Source: Clostridia bacterium
GTDB lineage: Bacteria > Bacillota_A > Clostridia > Oscillospirales > Acutalibacteraceae
NCBI GenBank assembly: GCA_024699005.1
Contig: JAILQN010000081.1
Location: 1-6,048, forward strand
Direction: 5' to 3'
DNA: 6,048 bases
The notes under the pieces are model-generated. The model had not been told where the DNA came from. It ran no database searches and saw only the letters and a program-made list of their open reading frames with translations. The number at the start of each line of letters is the position of its first letter. Position 1 is the first letter of the stretch. Below, in pieces: positions 1-6,048 of this stretch. Made by a program: the position numbers and the translations under genes.

Positions 1-180
1 TGGACGCTCGGTGCGGTTTCAAAAGGAACCTCCGTGAGGAGCTTAACTGAAATCACGGCGGAATCGGAGAAAGGCGCCCGTTCCTCCGCCAGCACGATCA
101 TCTCAGCGCCGGAAAAAAGCGTCGTTGCTGTAAATACTGCCCTGCCGCCGGAGGTTTCTACCGAAAAGCGGAGGTATTGA
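1..180 (+). CDS. 3' end of an unrecognised gene (partial)
   Basis: An open frame enters from the left edge and ends at TGA 178-180, giving the last 59 residues of a protein. The visible tail is rich in Ser, Ala, Glu, Lys and Arg and ends in a basic K-R-R-Y. No catalytic motif, membrane segment or known domain can be seen. The stop sits inside the ribosome-binding region of the next gene: GGAGG at 170-174 lies within its last codons. The two genes are therefore probably co-transcribed and translationally coupled. The base composition is moderately GC-rich, like the first third of the next gene. I do not recognise the family. Real coding is likely because of the coupled arrangement, but too little is visible to name it. 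Confidence 0.5.
   Translation, partial: WTLGAVSKGTSVRSLTEITAESEKGARSSASTIISAPEKSVVAVNTALPPEVSTEKRRY
170..174 (+). promoter_or_regulatory. Ribosome binding site that selects the GTG start at 183
   Basis: GGAGG lies 8 nt before GTG 183 but only 2 nt before the alternative TTG 177, so GTG 183 is the better start for the following gene. Confidence 0.6.
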
Positions 181-182
181 TA

Positions 183-830
183 GTGTATGGAAGTGGGGTT
201 ATAGAGCCTTACAGCACAAATACCCTCACAAGGATCATTGGATCCGTCTTCCACATATGGGCCAGTATCGGTGACCGTGCGGGCAGGACCGTTCAGAGAC
301 TCAACGAGCTCTACGCCACAAACGGCCAGATCGGCTACGTTTCCACCGAGCGCGTGGACGGCAAGGTTATTCTGCCGGAAGGCATCGAAAACGCAGATGA
401 TGAGTATTTAGAAACCACATTCGGCAAACTTTCGGATAAAGAAAAAAAGTGGATACAAAACGCCTTAGAGCTGCTTAAACAAGATTACTCACTAATAGCC
501 GTGATAAAAACACTGAAACAGGCGTTGGATGATCAATCGCTTGCGAAAGAAGAGCGGATTCAAATCGAAGCAAAATGTGAAAAAGCTATCATTCAGCTTC
601 TTGAGGACAGAGATAAAATGAATCTCGCTGTGGAAAACTACTTGTCCGCGTATTTATTATCATTCCATAAAGGTTTTGACTTGATTGATACCGGCATGCA
701 GACACATGACACAGATCTTGTGATTCAGGGGAATGTGTTAATACAAGAACAAATGGGTTACGACACCCAATTCTGTAACCAATCAGAATTTGATAAACTG
801 ATGGCTTCGGACGACGATTTTAAACTATGA
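183..830 (+). CDS. Hypothetical protein, about 215 aa, possibly two-part
   Basis: I do not recognise this family. The frame can begin at TTG 177, but GTG 183 has the better spacing from GGAGG 170-174 and is chosen here. Residues 1 to about 75 contain the stretch S-I-G-D-R-A-G-R-T-V-Q-R-L-N-E-L, followed by beta-like sequence (Q-I-G-Y-V-S-T-E-R-V-D-G-K-V). From about residue 78 the protein is acidic and helical, with Lys/Glu/Leu-rich segments, and it ends in a conserved-looking tail (E-F-D-K-L-M-A-S-D-D-D). The DNA for the second part is clearly more AT-rich than for the first. There is no signal peptide, transmembrane segment or enzyme motif. It stops 14 nt before the TerB-like gene, which has its own strong ribosome binding site, so the two are likely one operon. 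It could be a cargo or host protein of unknown role. The gene call is firm; the function is unknown. Confidence 0.7.
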   Translation: MYGSGVIEPYSTNTLTRIIGSVFHIWASIGDRAGRTVQRLNELYATNGQIGYVSTERVDGKVILPEGIENADDEYLETTFGKLSDKEKKWIQNALELLKQDYSLIAVIKTLKQALDDQSLAKEERIQIEAKCEKAIIQLLEDRDKMNLAVENYLSAYLLSFHKGFDLIDTGMQTHDTDLVIQGNVLIQEQMGYDTQFCNQSEFDKLMASDDDFKL

Positions 831-1285: not shown

Positions 1286-2185
1286 CTATTTCTCCGGCAG
1301 CTTAAGCTTCTGCCCTGAGTAAATCACGTTTGTTTTCAGGTTGTTGAGTTTGACAATCTCAGTATAGCGACGACCATCGCCGAGCTGCTTCCGTGCGATC
1401 TCCCACAGCGAGTCGCCGTGAACTACGGTATATATCCGCTCTGTTTTTGCCGTGTATACCGCTTTACCGTTCGCGTCGAAAACAGAGTAACCGGGGGTCT
1501 TGTCAGCGCAGGCCTTCGCGTTTGCAAGCTCTTTGAAAGCGCCTTTCTGCGATTTGGAATCTGCCCAGGTCTTGCGGACGCGATAAAGCGTCTGAACGGA
1601 AGTCGCTGGCTTGGTCGGAACGGATGTCCCGCCGGCAGTGGTACCGCCCTGAAGCTTCGCCGTGACCTGCTTTGCCAGATCCGCCATGTGGTTCATCATC
1701 CACGTACCGGGGCAGGCCGTGGACGCGAACCAACGGTGCACCGTCAGGATCATCTCGTCAGCCTTGGGAGTGTAATTGAGTGTCTTTGTTTTGTCCCCGA
1801 ACCAGATGAGTTTCGTCTTTCCATTGCGCCTGCATATGTCTACACACAGCTCGACAAGCATCGCGTAGACAGTTCCGTTAAACGCGTAGGGCTCCGACGT
1901 GTCCGATGCGCACTCGATGGTAATGGCGCGGTGATCATTCTCCCTGCTTGAGGAGCACCACGAGCGGTTCTTCTCATCCACGTAGAGCCCGACCCTGCCG
2001 GTTTTGTCAATGCCGTAATTCGCGGACACCTCCCGGCTGCCACAAAATATCTCTCCTAAGGTCTCGGCCGTACACTGACCGACTACGCAGTGGGGAGTTA
2101 TGCGGTCGATGGAGTGCGTTCGCTGCCCGGAGTTGTGCGGGCTGAGTTTTGTGTAAACCACCATTTTGGAATTCGTATAAGCCAT
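1286..2185 (-). CDS. Endolysin: N-acetylmuramoyl-L-alanine amidase (Amidase_2) with C-terminal LysM
   Basis: This 299-aa phage lysin cuts the amide bond between N-acetylmuramic acid and L-alanine in peptidoglycan at the end of infection. Residues about 20-165 form an Amidase_2 (T7-lysozyme/PGRP-like) zinc amidase. The expected zinc ligands are His32 (in T-P-H-C-V-V-G-Q), His150 and Cys158 (in V-H-R-W-F-A-S-T-A-C-P-G), with catalytic-site residues Tyr57 (S-A-N-Y-G-I-D) and Thr156. After a Gly/Thr/Pro linker (about 180-197) comes a Y-R-V-R-K-T-W segment (200-245) that looks like the SPOR-like module often found in clostridial prophage lysins. A LysM peptidoglycan-binding domain follows (251-297: Y-T-V-V-H-G-D-S-L-W-E-I-A to I-Y-S-G-Q-K-L-K-L-P). 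ATG 2185 is chosen over a TTG at 2203 because AAAGGAG (2200-2194) sits 8 nt before it. There is no signal peptide, so export depends on the holin. All domains appear intact. Confidence 0.95.
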   Translation of the reverse strand: MAYTNSKMVVYTKLSPHNSGQRTHSIDRITPHCVVGQCTAETLGEIFCGSREVSANYGIDKTGRVGLYVDEKNRSWCSSSRENDHRAITIECASDTSEPYAFNGTVYAMLVELCVDICRRNGKTKLIWFGDKTKTLNYTPKADEMILTVHRWFASTACPGTWMMNHMADLAKQVTAKLQGGTTAGGTSVPTKPATSVQTLYRVRKTWADSKSQKGAFKELANAKACADKTPGYSVFDANGKAVYTAKTERIYTVVHGDSLWEIARKQLGDGRRYTEIVKLNNLKTNVIYSGQKLKLPEK

Positions 2186-3834: not shown

Positions 3835-4901
3835 CACGCATTACCGTTGCGGACAAACGCCGTAATAGTAATGACCGTTCCGGCGTTAGTCGGATTAGGA
3901 GTTACGCGCACCCAGTCGAACACCGGCACGGTATTGTTCTGCACGATTACTCCGGTCCAGATGGTCGTCAGCCCGGCGCTGTTCGTCGCCGTGATCGTCA
4001 CGTTGTTTGACGCGTTCTGAGTAAGCTGAACGATAATGTCAAACGTACCGCCCGTTGCCGTCGTGGTGTATTCCGTACCGTTCACGTCGACCGTGATCTG
4101 AACGGGGCTTGTCTCATCGTCCGTAGTCGTACCGGTGATGTGATAGCTCATCTCCGCCGTTACCACGCTCGCCGAAGACGGAGACGTTACCGCCAGCGTA
4201 GGAGCCGTTACATCGCATACGAATGTGATGGTGCTTGTAGTCGTCGTATTCCCGTCGCAGTCCCCGATGGTAAAAGCAACAGTATGAGACGCCCCCACAC
4301 CCGTCGTCGAGAGAGCGTTTTTCGGAGTAGCGGTGCAAAGATACTCGCCGGTTTCAGAATCGTAAGAGTAATCGGTGGTAAAATTCTCTTCAATGTCCGC
4401 ACCGGAGTAATTCACACCGTCAAGGGTGATAACGAGCAGATTGAAGTCTATACCCGAATCTCCCTGCCCCTCTGTCGTTGCTGTGGCGTCCATTGCACCG
4501 ACGTCCTTGATCTTTACCGCGAAGGTAGGTGTCGCCGTATCAAATTTCTGATTGGCCGTCGGTGTGATGGTTGTGACTGTCGGCGCGACCTGCTCTTTTA
4601 CTCTTAAGCCCAGAGCCTCGAAACCCGCGTCTGCCATCGTGTAGTTTTCGGAAGATGTCCCAGCGTTGTTTACGGCCCATAACGTGCCGGAGAACACGCC
4701 GACCGACTTGCCGTCGATCGTCCGTTTGGTATTCTGTTTGAAAGATGAACCGAGCGGCAGGGTCTCCGTTCCGACCCAGCCGCCGACTACGTTCCCATTA
4801 TCGTCGGTTACCGTAGCGTCGTAAGTTAACGTGATTGTGTGCTGCGTCCCCGCAGCGTCCGTGTAGCGGTAATATACCGCTCCGTCTGTCATTGCCGCCA
4901 A
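3834..4901 (-). CDS. Multi-domain Ig-like phage tail protein (355 aa)
   Basis: The 355-aa product is rich in Thr, Asn, Val and Ala. Residues 1-100 form an N-terminal region (W-A-V-N-N-A-G-T near 75-82) that probably docks to the tail. Two Ig-like sandwiches follow. One (about 105-230) begins V-A-P-T-V-T-T-I-T-P. The second (about 232-320) begins T-A-P-T-L-A-V-T-S-P and has a G-T-T-T-D-D-E strand and a late N-V-T-I-T-A-T-N-S-A-G-L strand, resembling glucodextranase-like/Big-type domains. The last 30 residues carry V-T-P-N-P-T-N-A-G, a C-terminal motif seen in related phage proteins. Ig-like domains on phage tails are thought to bind surface sugars weakly; that role is inferred here. The start is TTG 4901, because AGGAGG (4916-4911) lies 9 nt before it, whereas ATG 4892 is 18 nt away. 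No lytic motif is present. Confidence 0.8.
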   Translation of the reverse strand: MAAMTDGAVYYRYTDAAGTQHTITLTYDATVTDDNGNVVGGWVGTETLPLGSSFKQNTKRTIDGKSVGVFSGTLWAVNNAGTSSENYTMADAGFEALGLRVKEQVAPTVTTITPTANQKFDTATPTFAVKIKDVGAMDATATTEGQGDSGIDFNLLVITLDGVNYSGADIEENFTTDYSYDSETGEYLCTATPKNALSTTGVGASHTVAFTIGDCDGNTTTTSTITFVCDVTAPTLAVTSPSSASVVTAEMSYHITGTTTDDETSPVQITVDVNGTEYTTTATGGTFDIIVQLTQNASNNVTITATNSAGLTTIWTGVIVQNNTVPVFDWVRVTPNPTNAGTVITITAFVRNGNA

Positions 4902-4910
4902 TAGTATCAG

Positions 4911-4916
4911 CCTCCT
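4911..4916 (-). promoter_or_regulatory. Consensus ribosome binding site selecting TTG 4901
   Basis: AGGAGG on the minus strand is 9 nt before TTG 4901 and 18 nt before the nearest ATG (4892), so the rarer TTG is the likely start of the Ig-like gene. Confidence 0.65.
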
Positions 4917-4934
4917 GTGATCCGTCTATATTTT

Positions 4935-5267
4935 TCATTTCGTTTCGCTGTCTTCGGAGCTGTCCGATTTGTGATGCAACTGCTCCAGTACGTCTTTCAC
5001 CTTGCCGGGAAACGGCAGACCGAGCTGTGCAGCGTTTTCCAGAATGGATATCCCCTCGTTTGAGAGATAAAAGAAAATGACCGCGGTCCGCATTATCGCG
5101 TGTTCCCCGAGGACGTAGACGTCCAGAATATTCGCTATTCCGACAATGCAGAAAATGACCACCTTCTTGGCGATCCCCTTGAAGCCGACCTGGCTGGACA
5201 GCTCCTTATGGGAAATCGCAACAAATACGCCCGTATCTGGATGTGCAGGATTTACTTTTTCAAACAC
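4935..5267 (-). CDS. Chimeric, N-terminally truncated phage holin (fused to the start of a SAM-synthetase-like gene)
   Basis: From about residue 12 to the end this is a class 4_1 (toxin-secretion/phage-lysis) holin: T-G-V-F-V-A, then G-F-K-G-I-A-K-K, a membrane segment at 36-53, a second at 58-76 and the family signature F-F-Y-L-S-N-E-G-I-S-I-L-E-N-A. The tail is hydrophilic and acidic. Holins form the membrane lesions that release the endolysin. Family members are usually about 130-150 aa, with an additional N-terminal membrane region before a D-Y-x-T-G motif. Here (110 aa) that part is absent. The first 11 residues (M-F-E-K-V-N-P-A-H-P-D) instead match my memory of the start of phage-type S-adenosylmethionine synthetases. 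GTG 5267 has AAGGAAAGG (5281-5273) ahead, inside the end of the terminase gene. I infer an in-frame deletion fusion; lysis activity may be lost or changed. Confidence 0.85.
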   Translation of the reverse strand: MFEKVNPAHPDTGVFVAISHKELSSQVGFKGIAKKVVIFCIVGIANILDVYVLGEHAIMRTAVIFFYLSNEGISILENAAQLGLPFPGKVKDVLEQLHHKSDSSEDSETK

Positions 5268-5271
5268 TGTT

Positions 5272-5820
5272 TTATCCTTTCCTTGCCCGAAGCAATCGTT
5301 CCATCAGGTCATCCTGCGGCGAGGGACCGCCGTAGTCCGTGGTACAGTTTTCTTTTACGATTTGGAATATCTCATTCCACATCCGCACAGCCTGATTCAT
5401 GTAATTGATACCGATGTTAATAAACGGGGACGGTATCGGCTTTTGTGTTGTCGGGTGCTTACTGAGAAAACCCATACGGTTTGTCATTTCTTCGCACTGC
5501 ACCCACCGGGCAGAACACATGGCATAGCGCTCAAGCAGCTGCGGAGATACCTTCGCCACACAGCCGATCTTTTTCAGCCATTCCCATGTTTCCTTGTAGA
5601 TCTCCTCTGCCTGCAGAGTGGTTCCGTCGCGCTGCTCAGCTGAAAGGAAATCGTGCGGCTTCGGCATTTCAACACCCTCGACCTCGGGAATATCCAGGAT
5701 CTCAAGTTTCCGGCCGCCTGGATTTCCGTTATCCAGCTTATCCTTGACAGCGGTTCTCTTCCTTCCCGCACCGGGTCTTGCTCCGCCTCTGCCGCCTGTA
5801 TTATTTGATTTTGTAGGCAC
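5272..5820 (-). CDS. terS: Phage terminase small subunit, P27 family
   Basis: The small terminase subunit recognises the phage packaging site and guides the large subunit, which cuts and pumps DNA into capsids. The 182-aa product has a basic Gly/Arg-rich N-terminus (G-A-R-P-G-A-G-R-K, residues 13-21) and the P27-type signature G-N-P-G-G-R-K-L (32-39). A helical region follows, with Y-K-E-T-W-E-W-L-K-K-I-G and L-L-E-R-Y-A. The end, D-D-L-M-E-R-L-L-R-A-R-K-G, is the usual P27 C-terminus. GTG 5820 is chosen because AAAGGGGGTGA (5836-5826) lies just before it; the open frame upstream to 5943 is low-complexity leader without a ribosome binding site. The gene looks intact, yet the large terminase that normally follows is missing: the next start is 4 nt away and belongs to the holin fusion. 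Confidence 0.9.
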   Translation of the reverse strand: MPTKSNNTGGRGGARPGAGRKRTAVKDKLDNGNPGGRKLEILDIPEVEGVEMPKPHDFLSAEQRDGTTLQAEEIYKETWEWLKKIGCVAKVSPQLLERYAMCSARWVQCEEMTNRMGFLSKHPTTQKPIPSPFINIGINYMNQAVRMWNEIFQIVKENCTTDYGGPSPQDDLMERLLRARKG

Positions 5821-5825
5821 TATCT

Positions 5826-5836
5826 TCACCCCCTTT
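5826..5836 (-). promoter_or_regulatory. Ribosome binding site that sets the small-terminase start
   Basis: AAAGGGGGTGA on the minus strand pairs extensively with the 3' end of 16S rRNA and is followed after 5 nt by GTG 5820. It excludes the longer frame beginning at 5943. Confidence 0.7.
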
Positions 5837-5950
5837 CTCGCGTCCGGGTCTTTTACCCGTTTGAAAACGCTTTTTTTTGAACGCGCGACCCCGGGCCGTT
5901 GCCCGAAAAAATATATCGTAGAGATTTTGACCGGCCCACCCAAAAAAAGT
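5837..5950 (-). other. Structured GC-rich leader upstream of the small terminase; candidate cos/packaging region
   Basis: No gene is seen here. The leader alternates homopolymer A/T runs with GC-rich hairpins: CGGGC/GCCCG (5892-5905, 4-nt loop) and CGGGT/ACCCG (5845-5859, 5-nt loop), plus a CCCGGG and a CGCGCG block between 5883 and 5895. P27-type small terminases usually belong to cos phages, and the cos site commonly lies just upstream of this gene. The cos reading rests on position and composition only; the hairpins could instead be 5' leader RNA structure. Confidence 0.35.
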
Positions 5951-5966
5951 TTATATAATTATATAA
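5951..5966. repeat. 16-bp perfect AT palindrome in the divergent control region
   Basis: TTATATAATTATATAA is identical to its own reverse complement. It contains TATAAT-like hexamers on the minus strand (5963-5958), so it may be the -10 region of the phage operon, an operator, or both. Confidence 0.55.
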
Positions 5967-5970
5967 TAGG

Positions 5971-5999
5971 TTGTATTTCTCCTAAAACAATGATATACT
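5971..5999 (+). promoter_or_regulatory. Putative sigma-70/sigma-A promoter for the divergent gene at 6031
   Basis: TTGTAT (5971-5976) and TATACT (5994-5999) are separated by exactly 17 bp. The -10 matches consensus in 5 of 6 positions and the -35 only in TTG. Transcription would start about 25 nt before ATG 6031. It lies beside the palindrome, so shared control with the minus-strand operon is possible. Confidence 0.5.
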
Positions 6000-6030
6000 C
6001 TTAATAACAGATGAAAGGAAGTGAGCAGTC

Positions 6031-6048
6031 ATGACTGTAAACACAAAC
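6031..6048 (+). CDS. Start of a divergent gene (partial, six codons visible)
   Basis: ATG 6031 is preceded by AAAGGAAGTGAG (6014-6025) at good spacing and by a promoter-like sequence at 5971-5999. Only M-T-V-N-T-N is visible before the window ends, so no family can be assigned. Its direction, away from the phage operon, suits a regulator, recombinase or an unrelated flanking gene. An upstream ATG at 6011 is closed by TGA after seven codons and is not the start. Confidence 0.55.

Follow-up and report, generated by a model that had tools for sequence, protein, structure and literature searches.

Within the window, by which we mean the whole 6,048-nt stretch of DNA analysed here, the first 11 codons of a phage metK-like gene are fused to a holin gene. 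The fusion itself is confirmed as an observation in the sequence, and comparison with related sequences supports its core reading, namely that a metK-like head has been joined in frame to a holin entered mid-protein. In our estimate, with a probability of roughly three in four, this represents a scar of illegitimate recombination in a defective prophage related to Ca. Heliusvirales, and the product would be a non-functional holin remnant. The origin by deletion and the defective state of the prophage both appear probable.

Two gene fragments in one reading frame

The fused ORF (5267..4935, minus strand) starts with GTG four bases past the stop codon of terS and encodes 110 aa. Its translation reads MFEKVNPAHPD followed, after the join behind residue 11, by TGVFVAISHKELSSQVGFKGIAKK..., and the frame is open through to the native holin stop. 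The features to which we refer below are the following.

5272..5820 (stop included), minus strand: terS, an intact small terminase gene of the P27/Terminase_4 type, with a GTG start at 5820
5235..5267, minus strand: metK-like first 11 codons (GTG, then FEKVNPAHPD), identified from related phages and by blastn
5233..5235, minus strand: probable recombination junction with an overlap of 1-2 nt, placed by base-by-base comparison
4935..5234, minus strand: 3′ part of a Phage_holin_4_1 gene (PF05105), from codon 43 to the end in the numbering of P0003
2259..4901, minus strand: cassette of Ig-like and tail-fibre-like genes (355, 123, 106, 84 and 217 aa), which separates holin from endolysin
1286..2185, minus strand: intact endolysin gene (Amidase_2 and LysM), with ATG at 2185
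267..386, plus strand: 120-bp piece of a Heliusvirales-type major head gene, on the strand opposite to the fusion

The gene upstream of the fusion matched PF05119 with 27.6 bits (cut-off 24.7) and phrog_83 with an E-value of 4.6e-38, and scored 15.9 against TIGR01558, below the cut-off of 45.6; over 182 aa its product is ~90–91% identical to the terS products of the best IMG/VR loci. The proposal, made in the initial annotation, that metK lies directly after a P27-type terS proved right for its relatives among the Ca. Heliusvirales phages, and the first 11 residues do correspond to the start of that gene. Each of 80 metK loci (the best 80 of 596 confirmed in IMG/VR) carries the head M[F/I/Y]EKVNPxHPDK, and 24 of the 80 read exactly MFEKVNPAHPDK, in a sample that favours this head since it comprises the best 80 of 596 and since one of the search words was MFEKVNPC. 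In five phage records with terS and metK side by side, the metK-like gene starts with MFEKVNPCHPDK in four cases and with MIEKVNPMHPDK in one. After its start codon the head of the fusion is matched at 10 of 10 residues, and the chance of such a match for residues 2–11 would be ~8e-14, a rough product of approximate residue frequencies. Two differences are apparent: a T occupies the position where metK heads have K after the D, and the start codon is GTG, as opposed to ATG in all 80 heads (again the best 80 of 596). The GTG lies at 5265–5267 (minus strand); terS apparently also begins with GTG (5820).

The identity of the donor gene is borne out by its relatives. All three of the metK-like products that were tested matched PF00438, the N-terminal domain of SAM synthetase (S-AdoMet_synt_N), above the cut-off, and both of two tested matched phrog_1569 over their whole length. 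The fusion shares with this gene the 11 codons, the ribosome-binding stretch and the site behind terS, but lacks the remaining ~250 codons, and the fused protein gave no match to PF00438 (E up to 1) or to phrog_1569 (E up to 0.1). The donor ribosome binding site, GGAAAGG at the end of terS, has been retained, as the initial annotation had proposed. The step in base composition that it described is also present (GC content of 36% over the initial 33 nt and 52% beyond them) but barely diagnostic, the 80 metK heads (best 80 of 596 confirmed) averaging 45% with a range of 27–55%.

The remainder of the protein belongs to the Phage_holin_4_1 family. Residues 12–98 matched PF05105 in hmmscan from profile position 27 to 115 of 116 (108.2 bits against a cut-off of 22.2, E 3.3e-31), residues 12–105 matched TIGR01593 (toxin secretion/phage lysis holin), and the invariant positions of an 18-sequence holin alignment are all present. 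The nearest database holins, P0002 and P0003 (141 aa), are 85–86% identical to the fusion over 90% of the query. They begin with M(K/R)SAWNAIQAAFT...DYITG, and the fusion enters this sequence at the T of DYITG, in agreement with the suggestion that the holin had been entered mid-protein. Residues 1–42 of P0003 are thus missing, and the fusion has a foreign start in place of the complete N-terminal part with its first membrane segment, whose loss had likewise been predicted. The strongest hydrophobic stretch of P0003 (mean 2.52 over 19 residues) falls in the missing part; the second hydropathy maximum (2.35) and a weak third region are retained. The predicted structures (mean pLDDT 52.7 for the fusion and 51.9 for the full holin P0003) are too poor to be compared, and a search for solved structural relatives of the fusion returned none at E up to 1.

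Holins of similar length do exist, for example P0030, P0090, P0106 and P0115 (116, 110, 109 and 104 aa, among the matches listed), and the fusion could in principle belong to an ordinary, naturally short subfamily whose N-terminus resembles MetK by chance. These four proteins, however, start as holins ahead of DYxTG, and an N-terminal part upstream of DY.[TS]G is found in all 79 of 83 holin loci that gave a row in this comparison (L021, L036, L042 and L069 gave none). The head of the fusion, by contrast, is matched at every residue after the start, sits where metK starts behind terS and belongs to a stretch of continuous DNA homology. Each of 80 holin loci, the best of 519 confirmed, resembles the fusion from its residue 12 onwards, and among the candidates obtained from the protein database with residues 1–40 the head was found only in P0001, the window's own protein. 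We therefore rejected this explanation, the least probable of those considered.

The junction and its uniqueness

The homology on both sides ends sharply at the same place, which supports a recombination scar. When the window was compared by blastn with the related loci, 79 matches, one per locus, were obtained on the terS side; none extended left of 5231, and their left ends lay at 5231 (26), 5234 (5), 5236 (8), 5243 (1), 5248 (22) and 5269–5299 (17), so that in 62 of the 79 (left ends 5231–5248) the match continues from terS into the metK head. Four more metK loci matched the head alone (5234–5266, 94% identity). On the holin side, 77 matches had right ends between 5165 and 5235, mostly at 5201–5220 with seven at 5234–5235, and none reached right of 5235. 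No match in any of these three groups crosses the join. Similarly, when the whole window was compared with phages by megablast, a single record was returned, PV036423 (Ca. Heliusvirales), aligned over 5234–5835, and this alignment stops at the predicted junction.

Base-by-base comparison places the junction at 5233–5235, inside the interval of about 5230–5240 that had been put forward from the letters alone. Of the 80 metK rows, 43 agree with the window as far as GATA, and in the other 37 the agreement ends with the third base of the Asp codon. Holin rows were found for 77 of 81 loci. In 20 of them the Thr codon is ACG, and to its left two of the 20 share one further base with the window while the other 18 share none. 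An overlap of only 1–2 bases is in keeping with illegitimate recombination. Codon 11 of a metK-like gene behind terS would thereby have been joined to codon 43 of a holin gene.

The exact junction sequence had no match in viral contigs, and a degenerate junction pattern had none either there or in the genome contigs. A search with residues 1–40 against 5.8 billion proteins gave four candidates, the window's own protein, which was covered to 100%, and three full-length holins covered to 73%; P0001 alone among them carries the head. It is also the only protein to cover >90% of the query when the whole fusion was used (best 120 of 7,995 matches). In the family of G001, a roe-deer rumen Clostridia MAG (from JAFVBH010000040.1), 104 of 398 genomes, drawn from a larger group, contain matches to the fusion protein; among the matches listed for these 398 genomes none starts before residue 5, and three weak ones (35–37% identity) start at residue 5 or 6. 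A holin with this N-terminus, the observation that would contradict a fusion, was thus not found among the matches listed. Our literature search found no paper joining SAM synthetase, the terminase small subunit and a prophage.

The main alternative to recombination in the prophage, to which we give a much smaller though appreciable probability, is that a chimeric molecule formed during amplification or library preparation, or a misassembly, set terS–metK DNA beside lysis-module DNA. It would agree with the occurrence of the fusion on a single 6,048-nt contig, with a gene order in the window unseen in the relatives compared, and with the presence of further joins on the contig, such as the 120-bp capsid piece with unrelated DNA on either side. 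Against it, the 1–2 bases shared at the join would leave no word on which a k-mer assembler could cross, the frame is kept, and terS, the fusion, the Ig cassette and the endolysin all lie on the minus strand. Since no word is shared across the join and the surrounding genes are intact and on one strand, we favour several rearrangements over a chimeric contig by between four and five to one.

Gene order in relatives and further rearrangements

Intact phages with terS–metK at one end and the full holin at the other had been proposed as a check, and two complete phages carry these genes ~24–27 kb apart. The metK-like gene of PV036426 begins at 25778 and the holin gene occupies 50239–50661, ~24.5 kb away on the same strand, with methyltransferase, major head and tail genes named in between. 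In PV036413 the metK-like gene (annotated at 31063–31890) and the holin (4641–5054) are both on the reverse strand, ~26.8 kb apart, and are separated by genes annotated as methyltransferase, terminase large subunit, portal, major head and tail. NatCom_11578 (PV036426), NatCom_991 (PV036413) and NatCom_17901 (PV036423), all Ca. Heliusvirales deposited as complete genomes, share terS and the metK start with the window; the first two, in which the holin and late genes were read, also have holin and endolysin of similar types. In G001, terS–metK–methylase lies near one end of contig C17, and contig C29 carries amidoligase, terL, portal, capsid, tail, full holin and endolysin genes, an arrangement consistent with one prophage split by assembly. 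The part of the window at 5874–6048, which has an ATG on the plus strand at 6031, is 75% identical to the G001 region upstream of terS–metK.

The window, unlike these phages, has no terL, portal, whole capsid gene or tail genes between terS and holin. Since the late genes lie between the two points in the relatives, the event that joined metK to the holin would also have removed or displaced the DNA-methylase, large-terminase, portal, capsid and tail genes, so that metK, the holin and particle formation would all have been destroyed by the recombination. A parent that has the same flanks but lacks the rearrangement was not found, and the event is therefore not polarised. Two further points weigh against a scar in a decaying element: terS, the holin remainder and the endolysin are all open frames, so that the fused ORF shows no decay of its own, and the fusion occurs on a single contig.

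A single deletion does not explain the whole window, because holin and endolysin are separated by the Ig cassette and a capsid piece lies on the opposite strand; together these suggest more than one rearrangement. Such additional joins were not mentioned in the initial annotation of the fusion. The endolysin is 76% identical over 248 aa to the one behind the intact holin of G001, but in the window it does not directly follow the holin, where it would be expected. Where both genes were found by similarity (54 loci), the endolysin follows within 66 nt of the holin in 20, as it does in G001, and in the other 34 the similarity to the endolysin set in no earlier than residue 50 of the query. Searching with the endolysin brought up 43 loci, with a holin match in 29 and none found in 14; in those 29 the largest gap between the two genes is 1,115 nt, compared with ~2.7 kb in the window. 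Within the cassette, the 123-aa protein matched Big_3_4 above the cut-off and the 355-aa protein matched Big_7 just below it. Their relatives in G001 (46% identity over 76 residues and 29% over 336, respectively) are encoded side by side before terL (L091, 3437–4668), which suggests that the cassette may move between positions. Searches with the Ig protein of 355 aa and with the 217-aa protein gave no viral relatives.

The capsid piece at 267–386 is sharp-edged. It was matched in 16 phage records and eight compared loci, and both of its flanks remained unmatched by the same records and loci. It is open in frame within an ORF at 177–830 (plus strand) and is 98% identical over ~41 residues to the database capsid protein P0126. 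A stray piece of this kind fits a decaying element. L053, considered as a second fusion of the capsid ORF, was rejected since the extension proved to be a spurious alignment past a stop codon. The neighbouring plus-strand genes at 387–830 and 845–1273 and the minus-strand region 3–266 could not be assigned usefully to any Pfam or PADLOC family. The 845–1273 ORF (142 aa) has relatives in two of the 398 G001-family genomes (30–34% identical), and its end overlaps what looks by eye like a hairpin-like, GC-rich repeat near 1240–1270. The open frame at 3–254 (minus strand) is protein-like, without a family match or a counterpart in G001, and its start may be cut at the border of the capsid piece near 266.

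Cryptic, or decayed, prophages have lost late genes and bear deletion scars with intact genes left between them. The window appears to resemble them in all of these respects.

Fate of the product and significance

The in-frame fusion of a SAM-synthetase-like start to a mid-protein holin, as first proposed, has thus been traced to its two sources, its join and its frame. What the product might do is another matter. A random join preserves the frame with a chance of one in three, so that the open frame is no evidence for a selected protein. Since the metK part is without a recognisable domain and the holin is truncated, it is economical to assume that metK is gone and the holin dead. Even if translated from the retained ribosome-binding site and GTG, the product would presumably be a non-functional holin remnant. 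Of the functional suggestions made in the initial annotation, inactivity seems the most economical, and an antiholin or other role appears unlikely.

It may nevertheless be argued that a working protein has been selected, a shortened holin that would act as a putative antiholin or tamer pore from the terS–metK translation start. The in-frame join, the kept ribosome-binding stretch, the full ORF to the native stop and the conserved residues of the holin core would be in keeping with this. Moreover, in TcdE, a related case, lysis is altered by the length of the holin: the forms initiated at Met1, Met25 or Met27 are not alike in lysis, and even those that begin 24 or 26 residues further on cause lysis of E. 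coli, to varying extents (PMC3369941). Altered activity of the fusion product is accordingly possible by analogy, but the 42 residues missing here make for a deeper truncation than in the TcdE forms described there. The fusion is, in addition, a single copy, so that there is no sign of selection, and it starts with GTG where all 80 relatives (best 80 of 596 confirmed) have ATG. We regard a selected protein as improbable. Less probable still is a variant in which terS, the short holin, the Ig cassette and the endolysin form a reduced unit that has been kept, a putative antiholin or tame pore releasing Ig-like proteins instead of particles.

A recombination scar in a defective prophage, the reading that we prefer, adds a further example to a familiar class of events. 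A protein head of 11 residues, read by eye, was enough to place the breakpoint within three bases and to name the phage module that is missing. If reads confirm the join, it would be a clean case of two genes fused in frame through illegitimate recombination as a prophage decays. Should its product turn out to be active, it would mean that lysis genes can acquire new N-termini together with new expression signals.
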